In this document: one piece after another, positions 8,610-26,409 of the stretch
Layout of the letters: every line of letters begins with the position of its first letter
Position numbering within the stretch: the stretch's first letter is position 1
Virus record (IMG/VR): IMGVR_UViG_3300009601_000011
Span: 1-26,409 of that record
Origin: a virus
Strand: one strand, 5' to 3'
Length of the DNA: 26,409 bases
Notes under the pieces: model-generated
Told to the model about the DNA's origin: nothing
Database searches by the model: none
The model's input: the letters and a program-made list of their open reading frames with translations, nothing else
Translations under genes and position numbers: made by a program

Positions 8610-10309
8610 TAACTTTTACCTCTTAATACACAGTTTGCACCAGCTTGAGTCGCTGCATCATAAGAGATTCTCGCTTTTTCTGCTGACTCATCTATTGCTT
8701 TCATACTAGCTCGAACACCTTGCAACGTATCTTTTGCAACGTCTGGTAAATTAGCTATTATTTCTGGATCATCCAATTCTAATAACATAGCTTCATTTTC
8801 TGTCTCTATATCTTCGGCTTTAATCTCACCTAAATCAGTAGTGTCAGCGTTTATTTCATCCACTTTCTCGGCATACGCATCTAATCTTCCTAAGTTATCT
8901 TGCCCTAAAATAGCTGAGTTTTTCTGGTCATCTAATTGTTGTGGTGTTAATCCTGCACCTTCTTGTGTTTGCACAATAGACTCAGTTGTATTAACGTCTT
9001 GTAACCCAGTCTCAGTAACTTGGTTTGTTACAGGGTCTTTTGGTCTAACAACAGCTTCACCATTAGCTCGCCTTAATGCTAAATTTATTGCCTTTAAAGT
9101 TGCCGATAACTTTACTAACTTTTCTTCATTTATAACTTTTTTTTCTTTGCGAAAAATACCTTCTTTAACAACCCTTCCTTGTTTTTGAAGCTCTATTTCA
9201 AGTTCAGTAATTTCTTTAGATTTTTCTAAATTTTCTATATAACTTTTATTATCTCTTGATGTTTGTTTTATTTCAGTCAAAGTTGTGCTCATGTCAGAAA
9301 CTGCACCACCACGAGCATCTGAGCCTAACGTCATCTCTATTTTGTAATCTTCGTCATAAACAGATTTACTTAAAACATCACTTTGATCCACAACTTTTTC
9401 TGTGCCATCAGTATCTTTAATAGTTACAATACCTTCTGCATCTACACTTACTTTTTCCACACTTCTTGGCTGACCTTCACTATCGTAAACTGTAATTCTT
9501 TCTGGTTGATCAGCTTCAGCTTTTATTGTTGTTGTTTCAGCTTCTGATATTATATTATCTAGCTTAACTTGCGTATCACCTAAAGACTGACCTATGGCTG
9601 TCTTCCCAGCCAACTCTCTTGTTTGAGGTGGTAATTTATTTAATCGATCACCTATTTTTCCAAAGCCAACGTGCATTATCCCACCTAAAGCACTACCAAC
9701 GGCTATGTTTAAAAAACTATCTAACATAGTATAACTTTTATCTTGCTCCGCTGCGGCTGCTCCAATAACTAAAGGCTCTACTACGGCTGCTCCAACGGCT
9801 CCATCTATTACACCAGCCATTGCTCTTGAACCACTTTTACCAAGCTTAGATGCCATAACAGCCATTCTAGCTGGACCAATAACAGGGATAAAAGCTGAAG
9901 CAACATTTAATGGATCAAGAAAACTACCAGCTATAGCAACACCGAATTGTGCAGCACCTAAACCAAAGCCACCCTCTGATCGACTAAGTGTAGTTTGAAA
10001 GTTAGTTCTTTTGTCAACTCTATCAGCTAACAGTTGAGCTAATCCAGCTTTTATTCCGCTTTCTCCAACATCAATATCAGCCCTGTAATATTCGCTTTCT
10101 GCCCAAGCCGCTTTTGAGATAGTTTCGCCTTGTGTGCCTTTGCCAATATACTGCTCACCCAATCTGTTTAAAGCATTTAAAGGGTTATAATACAAAGTCT
10201 CTTGAAAAGAAGCACCTAAAACATCCCTTGTTCCAGCTTTTTGAAGATCATAATATTGATTTGTAATATTTTTATCTTCCTTCTGTTCTGGAATATACAT
10301 TTGAACCAT
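8609..10309 (-). CDS. Internal virion protein with membrane-active Gly/Ala-rich region
   Basis: This 566-residue protein starts at 10309 in a TAATG overlap with the gene before it; an in-frame ATG at 10300 is a possible alternative start. Residues about 112-216 contain three hydrophobic Gly/Ala-rich segments (around GGFGLGAAQFGVAIAGSF, AGVIDGAVGAAVVEP and NIAVGSALGGIMHVGFG) that could insert into a membrane during ejection. The second half is acidic and probably coiled (about 340-420). It ends AGANCVLRGKS and is followed immediately by the 869-residue gene, again through TAATG. The position matches the T7 gp15/gp16 module. No enzymatic motif is visible. Confidence 0.65.
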   Translation of the reverse strand: MVQMYIPEQKEDKNITNQYYDLQKAGTRDVLGASFQETLYYNPLNALNRLGEQYIGKGTQGETISKAAWAESEYYRADIDVGESGIKAGLAQLLADRVDKRTNFQTTLSRSEGGFGLGAAQFGVAIAGSFLDPLNVASAFIPVIGPARMAVMASKLGKSGSRAMAGVIDGAVGAAVVEPLVIGAAAAEQDKSYTMLDSFLNIAVGSALGGIMHVGFGKIGDRLNKLPPQTRELAGKTAIGQSLGDTQVKLDNIISEAETTTIKAEADQPERITVYDSEGQPRSVEKVSVDAEGIVTIKDTDGTEKVVDQSDVLSKSVYDEDYKIEMTLGSDARGGAVSDMSTTLTEIKQTSRDNKSYIENLEKSKEITELEIELQKQGRVVKEGIFRKEKKVINEEKLVKLSATLKAINLALRRANGEAVVRPKDPVTNQVTETGLQDVNTTESIVQTQEGAGLTPQQLDDQKNSAILGQDNLGRLDAYAEKVDEINADTTDLGEIKAEDIETENEAMLLELDDPEIIANLPDVAKDTLQGVRASMKAIDESAEKARISYDAATQAGANCVLRGKS

Positions 10310-24374: not shown

Positions 24375-24395
24375 AATATTAACCTACTTAATCTG
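24375..24395. repeat. 21-base direct repeat, copy 1
   Basis: This is one of two identical 21-base copies (core TTAACCTACTTAATCTG), 73 bases apart. It lies downstream of the predicted leftward start point. The core has TTAA at both ends of a CCTAC centre. Probable protein-binding site (inference). Confidence 0.85.
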
Positions 24396-24424
24396 TATCT
24401 CTTTTATATACAAGCCAATAAACT

Positions 24425-24447: not shown

Positions 24448-24468
24448 AATATTAACCTACTTAATCTG
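24448..24468. repeat. 21-base direct repeat, copy 2
   Basis: Identical to copy 1 over 21 bases. It covers the place where the -35 hexamer of the leftward extended -10 promoter would be, so a protein bound here could activate or block that promoter. Confidence 0.85.
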
Positions 24469-24500
24469 CATTAATAAATCTAATTTGTTAACCCCTTGTT

Positions 24501-24557
24501 TTGTCAGGATATTTATTTGCATTTAATCATTGTATTATAACCATTGATGTATATACT
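24501..24557 (+). promoter_or_regulatory. Candidate rightward promoter(s) for the small-gene operon
   Basis: There are two candidates. TTGTCA (24501-24506) with TTTAAT (24522-24527) has five of six consensus matches in each box, but a short 15-base spacer. TTGTAT (24530-24535) with TATACT (24552-24557) has a 16-base spacer, a good -10 and a weak -35. The second -10 overlaps the small palindromes GTATATAC and GTATAC, which may be operator sequence. The first rightward gene starts at 24604, so either would give a short leader. Confidence 0.35.
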
Positions 24558-24574
24558 GTTGGTATACGTTAATT

Positions 24575-24603
24575 ACTAGCAACTAAGAAAAGGAGAGAAG
24601 ACC
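24575..24603 (+). promoter_or_regulatory. Leader with ACTAGCA box and Shine-Dalgarno, first rightward gene
   Basis: ACTAGCA (24575-24581) is followed by AAGGAG (24590-24595) and the ATG at 24604. A small stem (TATAC/GTATA, 24552-24566, five-base loop) lies just upstream. The same heptamer precedes the start of four later genes at 14-19 bases, making five occurrences. The stretch AAGACCATG at the start codon recurs before the gene at 25053. Confidence 0.7.
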
Positions 24604-24965: not shown

Positions 24966-25052
24966 CTTTAATACTCTTTTGATACAGTATTTATTACTGT
25001 ATCAAGAGAGCTTTAAAAGCTCATTAACTAGCAACAGAAAAGGATAAAGACC
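24966..25052 (+). promoter_or_regulatory. Intergenic RNA cassette 1 (two stem-loops, ACTAGCA, Shine-Dalgarno)
   Basis: Stem A pairs CTCTTTTGATACAGTA (24974-24989) with 24995-25010: 16 pairs including one G-U, loop TTTAT. Stem B is GAGCTTTAAAAGCTC (25008-25022). The two share GAG at 25008-25010, so they cannot both form fully. ACTAGCA (25027-25033) follows four bases after stem B, then AAAAGGAT and the ATG at 25053. No U-tract follows stem A, so it is not a standard intrinsic terminator. Confidence 0.75.
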
Positions 25053-25502
25053 ATGATAAACAATAAACAGATAAAAACAATCAATACCATGTATGACAGT
25101 CTACAATTTATGAATAATATTACATGGAATAAATACAGAGATAATATTTTTAAGTATGAACTGCAACAGGAAAAAATGCACAGAAATGGTTGGTGCAATG
25201 GTAGAGATTATGGCAAGTTCACCGCCAATCTTTCAGCTAAGTATTTTACTGTAAAACATATGATTGATGCAATGATAGCTCAAAACAAATCAATATATTA
25301 TAATGATTCAAGTAAGTTGCATACTGTAAAAGATTATTTACATGTTAAAACAAGCGTTTTTATGGCTGAAAGTTTTGTTTTAAACTATCCAGAAAAGATA
25401 GAAAAATATAATAAGTTCTGGCTAGATAGTGGCGTATTTTTGCAATTCATAGAATATGATTACGTTGAGCTAGTAAACACAGAAGAAAAGAAAGTAGCGT
25501 AA
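25053..25502 (+). CDS. Hypothetical phage protein (149 aa)
   Basis: The ATG at 25053 is preceded by AAAAGGAT. The 149-residue product begins MINNKQIKTINTMYDSLQFM, is rich in Lys, Asn, Tyr and Phe, and appears soluble and mixed in fold. Its two cysteine-free halves contain aromatic clusters (NGWCNGRDYGKFTANLSAKY has the only cysteine). No signal, membrane segment or known motif is visible. It lies in a run of small rightward genes separated by RNA cassettes. Codon use is very AT-rich compared with the virion genes. Function unknown. Confidence 0.75.
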   Translation: MINNKQIKTINTMYDSLQFMNNITWNKYRDNIFKYELQQEKMHRNGWCNGRDYGKFTANLSAKYFTVKHMIDAMIAQNKSIYYNDSSKLHTVKDYLHVKTSVFMAESFVLNYPEKIEKYNKFWLDSGVFLQFIEYDYVELVNTEEKKVA

Positions 25503-25587
25503 ACTTTAATACTCTTATAATACAGGTTAACGCCTGTATTATGGGAGCTTTAAAAGCTCAAACAACTAGCAAAGAAAAGGATATATT
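25503..25587 (+). promoter_or_regulatory. Intergenic RNA cassette 2
   Basis: Stem A pairs CTCTTATAATACAGG (25512-25526) with 25533-25547: 15 pairs with two G-U, loop TTAACG. Stem B (25545-25559) is identical to that of cassette 1, and the two stems again share exactly GAG. ACTAGCA (25565-25571) follows, then AAAAGGAT and the ATG at 25588. The 15 bases AACTTTAATACTCTT that open the cassette are the same as in cassette 1, while the inner stem differs by paired changes. Confidence 0.75.
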
Positions 25588-25917
25588 ATGACATTAACAA
25601 ACAAAGATAAAAGGGCTTTAATAGAGGGCTTAGCAATCCAACTAAAAGGATCGTCTTTTAAACAATATCAATCTTTTACTGTAAACGCTGATAAATATTT
25701 GCAATCAATATTCTTAGATTGGTTTAATAATTATTTAACTTATGAAAAGTTCGCAGAACATTATGAGATCAGTATTACAAGAGCTGAAGAACTAATAAAA
25801 GAAGCAAGAGCTATACATGAAAGACTGGTAAAAGATATAATCACAACAAAAGCATCTAAAGAGTTAGGCATGAATAAAAAAGCCTTAGACGATAAGCTTA
25901 TATTTATAACGGGCTAA
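25588..25917 (+). CDS. Putative helix-turn-helix phage protein (109 aa)
   Basis: The ATG at 25588 follows AAAAGGAT. The 109-residue product is helical and charged. Residues about 51-76 (TYEKFAEHYEISITRAEELIKEARAI) look like a helix-turn-helix: a first helix, a turn at EIS, and a recognition helix. A second helical unit with ASKELGMNKKALDDKL ends the protein. This makes a small DNA-binding regulator plausible, and the repeats or palindromes in the divergent region are possible targets. That link is speculative. Confidence 0.7.
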   Translation: MTLTNKDKRALIEGLAIQLKGSSFKQYQSFTVNADKYLQSIFLDWFNNYLTYEKFAEHYEISITRAEELIKEARAIHERLVKDIITTKASKELGMNKKALDDKLIFITG

Positions 25918-25997
25918 CTTGTTACTCTCTCAAGGCTCTATTTATTAGAGCTTTGCAGGAGCTTCAAGGCTCACAAACTAGCATAGGAGACTAAACA
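25918..25997 (+). promoter_or_regulatory. Intergenic RNA cassette 3
   Basis: Stem A pairs CAAGGCTCTA (25931-25940) with 25946-25955 around loop TTTAT, the same loop as cassette 1, and continues as CTCT/GGAG after a two-base bulge. Stem B is GAGC...GCTC (25959-25972). The shared GAG (25959-25961) again belongs to both stems. ACTAGCA (25977-25983) lies four bases after stem B, followed by AGGAG and the ATG at 25998. Confidence 0.7.
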
Positions 25998-26135
25998 ATG
26001 ACAAAAAAAGACATAACAGAAACAACAGTAATAATAATATTATTAACTGTTTTAACAATCTCTTTCATAAATCCATTTAGCAAGAAATACACTATTTGGA
26101 ATTTAGTTTATCAAACTCAAGATTTGTATAACTGA
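25998..26135 (+). CDS. Small one-helix membrane protein (45 aa)
   Basis: The ATG at 25998 has TAGGAG upstream. The 45-residue product has a polar start (MTKKDITETT), one hydrophobic segment (about residues 11-25, rich in Ile, Leu and Val) and a polar aromatic tail (YTIWNLVYQTQDLYN). It could be a single-pass inner-membrane peptide. The presence of the same leader cassette as its neighbours is the main evidence that it is translated. No family recognised. Confidence 0.65.
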   Translation: MTKKDITETTVIIILLTVLTISFINPFSKKYTIWNLVYQTQDLYN

Positions 26136-26246
26136 GCAATAAAAGAATTTGTAAAGGTTAGAATAGACCTAGCCTTTACAATAACCCGTCATATAGCTCT
26201 TAAATAGCTATTAATGGCATAACTAGCAAAATAGAAAGGTTCTAAT
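26136..26246 (+). promoter_or_regulatory. Intergenic RNA cassette 4
   Basis: Stem A pairs TTGTAAAGGTTAG (26149-26161) with 26169-26181: 13 pairs with one G-U, seven-base loop. Stem B pairs ATAGCT (26193-26198) with AGCTAT (26206-26211) and extends as GTCAT/ATGGC after a two-base bulge. ACTAGCA (26222-26228) follows, then AAAGG and the ATG at 26247. Sequence differs from the other cassettes, and here the stems do not share bases, but order and spacing are kept. Confidence 0.65.
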
Positions 26247-26409
26247 ATGCAAGAACTAATAAAAGATGATGTTAAACGTAAAAACTATCTGAGTTATTTT
26301 AAGCTTGGAGCAATCGATGCGATTATAAAAAAGAAAGTGAATAGCCTTAATATGAAAAGCTCAGCCTACTATAAAAAAGGTTGGGAATTTGGAACGTCTA
26401 TAAATGAAG
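26247..26409 (+). CDS. Hypothetical phage protein, 3' end missing
   Basis: The ATG at 26247 follows AAAGG and the fifth ACTAGCA box. The frame is open to the window edge, giving 54 visible residues starting MQELIKDDVKRKNYLSYFKLG. The layout YFKLGAIDA, then a Lys-rich stretch, then YYKKGWEFG resembles the paired Tyr/Gly and Gly-Trp spacing of small ribosome-modulation-factor-like proteins common in phages. This is a weak resemblance. Size and function remain open because the end is missing. Confidence 0.65.
   Translation, partial: MQELIKDDVKRKNYLSYFKLGAIDAIIKKKVNSLNMKSSAYYKKGWEFGTSINE

Follow-up and report, generated by a model that had tools for sequence, protein, structure and literature searches.

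Long intergenic stems with an internal loop, about two helical turns in length, serve as RNase III sites in the early operon of small genes of phage T7. Hammerhead ribozymes of phages and prophages also flank genes: they are intergenic in polycistronic transcripts, occur several per genome before different downstream genes, and have been proposed to yield one mRNA per gene by cutting the transcript (PMC3088659). A different arrangement is that of the SAS/ESAS elements of cluster K mycobacteriophages (PMC3203893) and cluster EF Microbacterium phages (PMC7302621), in which the consensus GGGATAGGAGCCC (or GGGAAAGGACCCC) occupies the Shine–Dalgarno position. For the cluster K repeats, little support for hairpins was reported (PMC3203893).

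The window analysed here is a virus record of 26,409 bases from an uncultured ocean phage (IMGVR_UViG_3300009601_000011). Gaps 1–4 are the spaces between early genes 2 and 6 (Table 1). The original prediction placed one repeated RNA cassette in all four. Its coordinates, stems and heptamer (ACTAGCA) hold, as do the distances of 3–5 nt from the last stem to the heptamer and of 14–19 nt from the heptamer to the ATG; the cassette does not, as gaps 1–3 carry one family (A/B) and gap 4 another (class C). The layout of a T7-type site, in which early genes are separated by a stem of at least about 20 bp that contains an internal loop, is found in A/B but not in gap 4 (13 bp). Compared with the T7 sites, the window adds a start-associated motif and a tail that can pair with the 3′ arm of the stem (the capture tail), and cleavage is here only inferred. 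The original prediction also knew of no described element with this layout: SAS/ESAS, however, (PMC3203893, PMC7302621) have the same gross layout, and hammerheads (PMC3088659) hold the same kind of slot, in relatives of this phage right before ACTAGCA. What is shared with SAS/ESAS is a short motif at a fixed place ahead of many non-structural genes, to which an inverted repeat (cluster K) or a conserved stretch (EF) is added upstream of a subset or of all; here, CTAGCA is fixed before many starts and an element stands upstream of a subset. However, ACTAGCA is unrelated to SAS in sequence and lies upstream of a separate Shine–Dalgarno rather than within it, and the base pairing of the repeat is strongly supported by covariation. 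In contrast to the hammerheads, the elements of the window are covarying hairpins of unrelated sequence; no hammerhead core (CUGANGA and GAAA, a UH cleavage site and three helices) was found in the window by descriptor scans or Rfam.

Early operon

The leftward genes of the window are structural, with PHROG matches to terminase subunits, head–tail adaptor and capsid. By terminase (~50% identity) the nearest isolates are the HTVC010P-type pelagiphages. Their structural gene set is similar, but the early genes of HTVC010P and HTVC034P have neither stems nor ACTAGCA leaders. A terminase search of bacterial genome contigs for host assignment gave no match. The early operon begins with the rightward cluster from 24604. 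Early gene 2 starts inside the stop codon of gene 1, so a leader is not needed there. The near-identical contig L091 continues the operon with the 26247 gene, then a further hairpin, a gene for an HTH protein (PF01381) and an additional small gene, and closes it with an ordinary hairpin followed by a U-tract (a T-tract in the DNA). This true terminator-like end marks the internal stems as a different device. No U-tract follows any of the four window stems, and in 46 related A/B elements T runs immediately beyond the base of the stem reach at most 3; intrinsic terminators were rejected, in agreement with the original prediction. In the divergent structural/early region, a 24-nt direct repeat (24375–24398 and 24448–24471; 96% identical, 73 bp apart) was noted, possibly representing operator or origin sites.

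Table 1 Features of the early operon and its leaders, in window coordinates
Feature	Position	Strand	Remarks
Sigma70-like promoter before early gene 1	24530..24557	+	-35 TTGTAT, 16 nt, -10 TATACT; consensus resemblance only
Heptamer ACTAGCA before gene 1	24575..24581	+	Without stems; same arrangement in relatives
Early gene 1, 53 aa	24604..24765	+	No PHROG match
Early gene 2, 66 aa	24765..24965	+	Start overlaps gene 1 stop (TAATG)
A/B element 1, long stem	24967..25017	+	R1 71.5 bits; covariation
A/B element 1, alternative short hairpin GAGCUUUAAAAGCUC	25008..25022	+	GAG and P1 common to long stem
Heptamer ACTAGCA, gap 1	25027..25033	+	ATG 19 nt after heptamer
Early gene 3, 149 aa	25053..25502	+	No Pfam or PHROG match
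A/B element 2, long stem	25505..25554	+	P1 25505-25509, then 25512-25527 with 25532-25547; R1 63.6 bits
A/B element 2, alternative short hairpin	25545..25559	+	Fold and alignment of 46 elements
Heptamer ACTAGCA, gap 2	25565..25571	+	ATG 16 nt after heptamer
Early gene 4, 109 aa	25588..25917	+	phrog_26669, function unknown
A/B element 3, long stem	25918..25968	+	P1 CUUG/CAAG, CUC 25925-25927/GAG 25959-25961; R1 59.8 bits
A/B element 3, alternative short hairpin GAGCUUCAAGGCUC	25959..25972	+	Fold and alignment of 46 elements
Heptamer ACTAGCA, gap 3	25977..25983	+	ATG 14 nt after heptamer
Early gene 5, 45 aa	25998..26135	+	Open reading frame
Class C element, first stem, 13 bp UUGUAAAGGUUAG/CUAGCCUUUACAA	26149..26181	+	32 distinct members
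Class C element, second stem with alternative pairings	26188..26218	+	Just before heptamer; folding
Heptamer ACTAGCA, gap 4	26222..26228	+	ATG 18 nt after heptamer
Early gene 6	26247..26409	+	Runs past window end; 60 aa in near-identical L091

The hairpin family of gaps 1–3

Folding of the gaps was compared with dinucleotide shuffles. The z scores of gaps 1–4 were -6.1, -5.7, -2.9 and -3.3, and 0, 0, 2 and 0 of 200 shuffles each, respectively, were at least as stable. An alignment of 46 distinct A/B elements from related metagenomic phages was made, in which the stem is aligned by two anchors with 0 indels. The hairpin begins with 5 bp and a 2×2 internal loop, above which come the 3 bp of CUC/GAG, 13 further bp and a loop of 3–6 nt; stem length is constant at 23 positions (5 bp, the 2×2 loop and 16 bp), which is about two helical turns. 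In element 1, P1 (24967–24971/25013–25017) and the 2×2 loop are followed by CUC (24974–24976)/GAG (25008–25010) and the inner 13 bp (24977–24989/24995–25007). Across the 46 elements, which are all metagenomic and mutually related and so are not independent samples, 97.8% of the outer 5 bp and 90.5% of the inner 13 bp are paired. Two-sided changes occur at 11 of the 13 inner pairs in this set, with slid inner-stem controls pairing at 31–46%. In an independent count on 17 diverse members, 95.3% were paired, with 72 two-sided cells and a covariation score of 0.617 (0.050–0.095 when slid, 0.224 when shuffled).

The covariance model R1, the E-values of which are rough, recovered A/B members across related loci; 740 kb of unrelated DNA from phages and bacteria yielded no convincing match. 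Most members score 55–72 bits on the coding strand and 29–43 bits on the reverse. Gaps 1, 2 and 3 score 71.5, 63.6 and 59.8 bits, and gap 4 scores 12.3 bits. A search of the kind suggested in the original prediction has returned homologous, covarying elements in many related phages for the family of gaps 1–3, with gap 4 outside the A/B model; neither of the outcomes named there as adverse, a lack of homologues or stems no better than shuffled sequence, was obtained, the homologues being many and the stems far more stable than shuffles. Four pattern loci (L082, L084, L087 and L092) look like chance matches and were rejected. Of 4227 Rfam models, none reached the gathering threshold, either in the window or among 20 relatives, and the weak matches in the gaps resemble chance hits. 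A/B is a structured RNA family absent from Rfam, present in uncultured marine phages and located upstream of about 20 protein clusters.

Alternative folds

The 3′ arm of the long A/B stem contains GAGC, and the tail GCUC lies directly 3′ of it. The original prediction described a long and then a short stem-loop in succession. In gaps 1–3 this does not apply: GAG pairs either way, so that the two stem-loops are mutually exclusive alternatives that share bases, and the overlap makes them one element with two states. The tail hairpin covaries (GAGCU/AGCUC, GAGCG/CGCUC and GAGCUG/CAGCUC) and is retained in CAC variants, where the middle CUC/GAG pair of the long stem is lost. By predicted folding, the long stem is favoured in the intact RNA in 46 of 46 elements, by 2.4–8.9 kcal/mol, and a fragment running from GAG onward is predicted to form a 5′-terminal hairpin in all 46. 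In gaps 1 and 2, the Shine–Dalgarno and the start codon are outside both predicted folds. A sister group of phages has a two-state layout alike but of unrelated sequence (e.g. AGAUUUAC...GUAAAUC in L064 and L074), with a shorter long stem of ~18 positions.

Gap 4 and class D

A single family for all four gaps was rejected: the low R1 score of gap 4 and its assignment to another class mean that the operon does not hold one cassette four times. Class C has 32 distinct members, located before at least 21 different proteins. Its first stem is 12–13 bp in length; 99.8% of cells are paired in the alifold consensus, with two-sided change at 3 of 14 pairs. Downstream of it come stems for which alternative pairings are predicted. 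Near the operon end, in L091 and relatives, a class D hairpin precedes the HTH regulator gene in 34 of 38 cases. Class D (L091:4590-4530, reverse strand) has a covarying stem and a conserved AUGA-containing loop.

The start-associated heptamer

Across the entire window, ACTAGCA shows no enrichment (9 copies found, 5.4 expected); all five early copies are positioned 14–22 nt before an ATG. The copy behind the sigma70-like promoter has no stems, so motif and stems are separable, and the heptamer likewise stands without an element before several genes of these operons. An A/B, C, D or hammerhead element is found upstream of more than half of the motif sites. No 7-mers are more frequent than CTAGCAA and TAGCAAA in the leaders of early genes called in 80 terminase-matched loci and in additional pattern loci, and exact motif copies thin out once the distance to the terminase exceeds ~4 kb, which lies outside the early operon. 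Counting was restricted to leaders no shorter than 15 nt: in 44 loci, CTAGCA is present in 138 of 200 early genes and AACAACA in 2 of 200, whereas in ten sister loci AACAACA is present in 24 of 45 and CTAGCA in 0 of 45. This reversal suggests that the start-associated sequence is particular to each lineage. In the sister phages L050, L062, L063, L064, L066, L067 and L074, AACAACA takes the place of ACTAGCA before early genes, and long-stem/tail elements of different sequence occur there too.

Hammerhead ribozymes in the same slot

Complete hammerhead cores were found in L072, L080, L121, L124, L125 and L142. In L072 and L080 (higher-GC relatives; TerL ~82%), type II and type I cores occupy the space before ACTAGCA; Rfam also recognises them, though with scores below gathering (28.8 bits for the best, Hammerhead_II; cut-off 37). 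The descriptor scan, covering 1.18 Mb, found matches in the slot before ACTAGCA, and the same descriptor gave 0 in 5.9 Mb of shuffled sequence. All 14 distinct hammerhead sequences that were tabulated lie 0–12 nt upstream of the motif, a nearness that is circular for loci fetched with CTAGCA-containing patterns and is not so for L072, L080, L119–L125 and L127. Hammerheads precede five protein clusters. GP88 (PF17338 in both groups) has A/B upstream in L048, L053, L057, L096 and L116 and a type I hammerhead in L121. GP88-like starts, assigned by N-terminal similarity only, have a hammerhead upstream in L130, L139 and L142 but no element in L132. In L080 and L124, hammerheads stand before an ArdC-type gene. 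A/B elements thus stand where related phages keep hammerheads, even before homologous genes. Hammerheads and stems occur in phages of different, though related, lineages; the equivalence is thus one of position and gene, not one within a single genome.

A general coupling of CTAGCA to hammerheads was rejected: among 157 type II hammerheads the motif accompanies 9, which come almost entirely from the present group of phages. One high-GC, apparently unrelated phage carries a type III and a type II hammerhead (L138:9597-9645 and 10029-10087), each followed by CTAGCA and a start codon. It was kept as a lead only, because one of the two was chosen by a CTAGCA-demanding pattern.

Proposed mechanism and alternatives

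The gap elements are best explained, with a probability of about 0.5, as interchangeable cis-acting transcript-processing elements of one early operon, those of gaps 1–3 probably being RNase III-type sites that leave a hairpin-capped product. We infer both the cutting of the window's elements and the enzyme responsible. The long hairpin of gaps 1–3 would form first as the transcript emerges, and its double-stranded part would be cut, with a host RNase III-type enzyme as the likeliest agent. Loss of the 3′ arm from the stem would let the downstream message, beginning at GAG or nearby, refold, with GAGC and the tail GCUC pairing into a hairpin at the new 5′ end. This hairpin would block re-pairing and shield the 5′ end, while ACUAGCA and the Shine–Dalgarno would stay single-stranded for translation. 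In gap 4 a different structure would act in the same slot, and in the relatives the cut would be made by the RNA itself (the hammerhead). With slot and tail logic as in the hammerheads and with a location on the coding strand, the elements are most economically read as being cut. Their length of about two helical turns suggests an RNase III-type enzyme, an argument weakened by the 13-bp first stem of class C and by the shorter stems of the sister group, where ~18 positions show that the two-turn length is not universal. Of the two functions that the original prediction had offered, a modular processing element is the better supported, by covarying stems, by hammerheads in the slot and by the many unrelated downstream genes.

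The stems might instead stabilize 3′ ends or insulate, stopping exonucleases after each cistron or shielding the translation and structure of neighbours, with no cutting 5′ of each gene. Their stability, their position immediately downstream of stop codons and the lack of a U-tract would fit, and so would the covariation, but the conserved pairing of the tail with the 3′ arm and the presence of hammerheads, which cut, in the same slot are left unexplained; we consider this unlikely. Slightly less likely again is a two-state switch, in which a phage or host factor or upstream translation selects the fold and so tunes the next gene without cleavage. The two folds are indeed mutually exclusive, each is conserved on its own, and heptamer and tail are placed just before the Shine–Dalgarno; yet neither predicted fold covers the Shine–Dalgarno or start codon in gaps 1 and 2, and the hammerheads again favour cutting.

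Known small ribozymes have a richer conserved core than A/B, a simple hairpin with a 2×2 internal loop and few conserved unpaired bases. It is improbable that A/B and C are self-cleaving ribozymes of an undescribed class, even though slot and capture-tail logic are as in the hammerheads and Rfam has no match. An equally improbable extension is a general cut-and-capture slot before phage early genes, with interchangeable cutters (hammerhead I/II, A/B and class C), a capture tail and a lineage-specific start motif, in which A/B and C would be a new self-cleaving RNA class. Least probable is a role as DNA, either as protein-binding sites, one possibility raised for SAS/ESAS, or as recombination boundaries for the shuffling of small gene modules. 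The layout does resemble SAS/ESAS (PMC3203893), and the same elements precede many unrelated genes. However, arm sequences drift while pairing, including G–U, is kept, and the coding strand far outscores the reverse, which argues for RNA and not a fixed DNA site. Nor do the elements travel strictly with genes: the 149-aa gene is without an A/B element in L003, and GP88 follows A/B, a hammerhead or nothing. The other suggestion of the original prediction, spread by recombination together with gene modules, is weakly supported for the same reason.

Because A/B elements occupy the place of hammerheads in related phages, the purpose of the phage hammerheads can be tested directly: should elements cut by protein and elements that cut themselves prove exchangeable, then the job is transcript processing.

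Capture tails in type II hammerheads

Type II hammerheads (L129–L304) were fetched mostly by a core pattern without CTAGCA. In this set, the tail after stem II often complements the ribozyme's own CUGA-N7 strand. N7=U occurs with AUCAG in 24 cases and with GUCAG in 0; N7=C occurs with GUCAG in 36, AUCAG in 0 and UUCAG in 1; where N7 is A or G (n=25), neither AUCAG nor GUCAG is found. The N7 and tail bases of the RUCAG tail and the CUGAY strand thus covary in 60 of 61. This pattern suggests a competing hairpin that would hide the catalytic core. A pseudoknot between loop I and the same hammerhead tail was described by Perreault et al. (PMC3088659), and the tail may use both pairings. That a capture tail is shared by A/B and type II hammerheads suggests its reason: the product caps itself and cannot be re-joined. 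A Shine–Dalgarno-like site and an ATG are found within 70 nt of 106 of 156 type II hammerheads. One phage carries seven type II hammerheads in ~4 kb (L149:1142-5156), many just before start codons. In a Rhodobacteraceae bin (L293:212-608), ATCAG comes after both of two type II hammerheads, together with a repeated CTAGAACTA..AGGAGGTTCA leader that is possibly another start-associated sequence.
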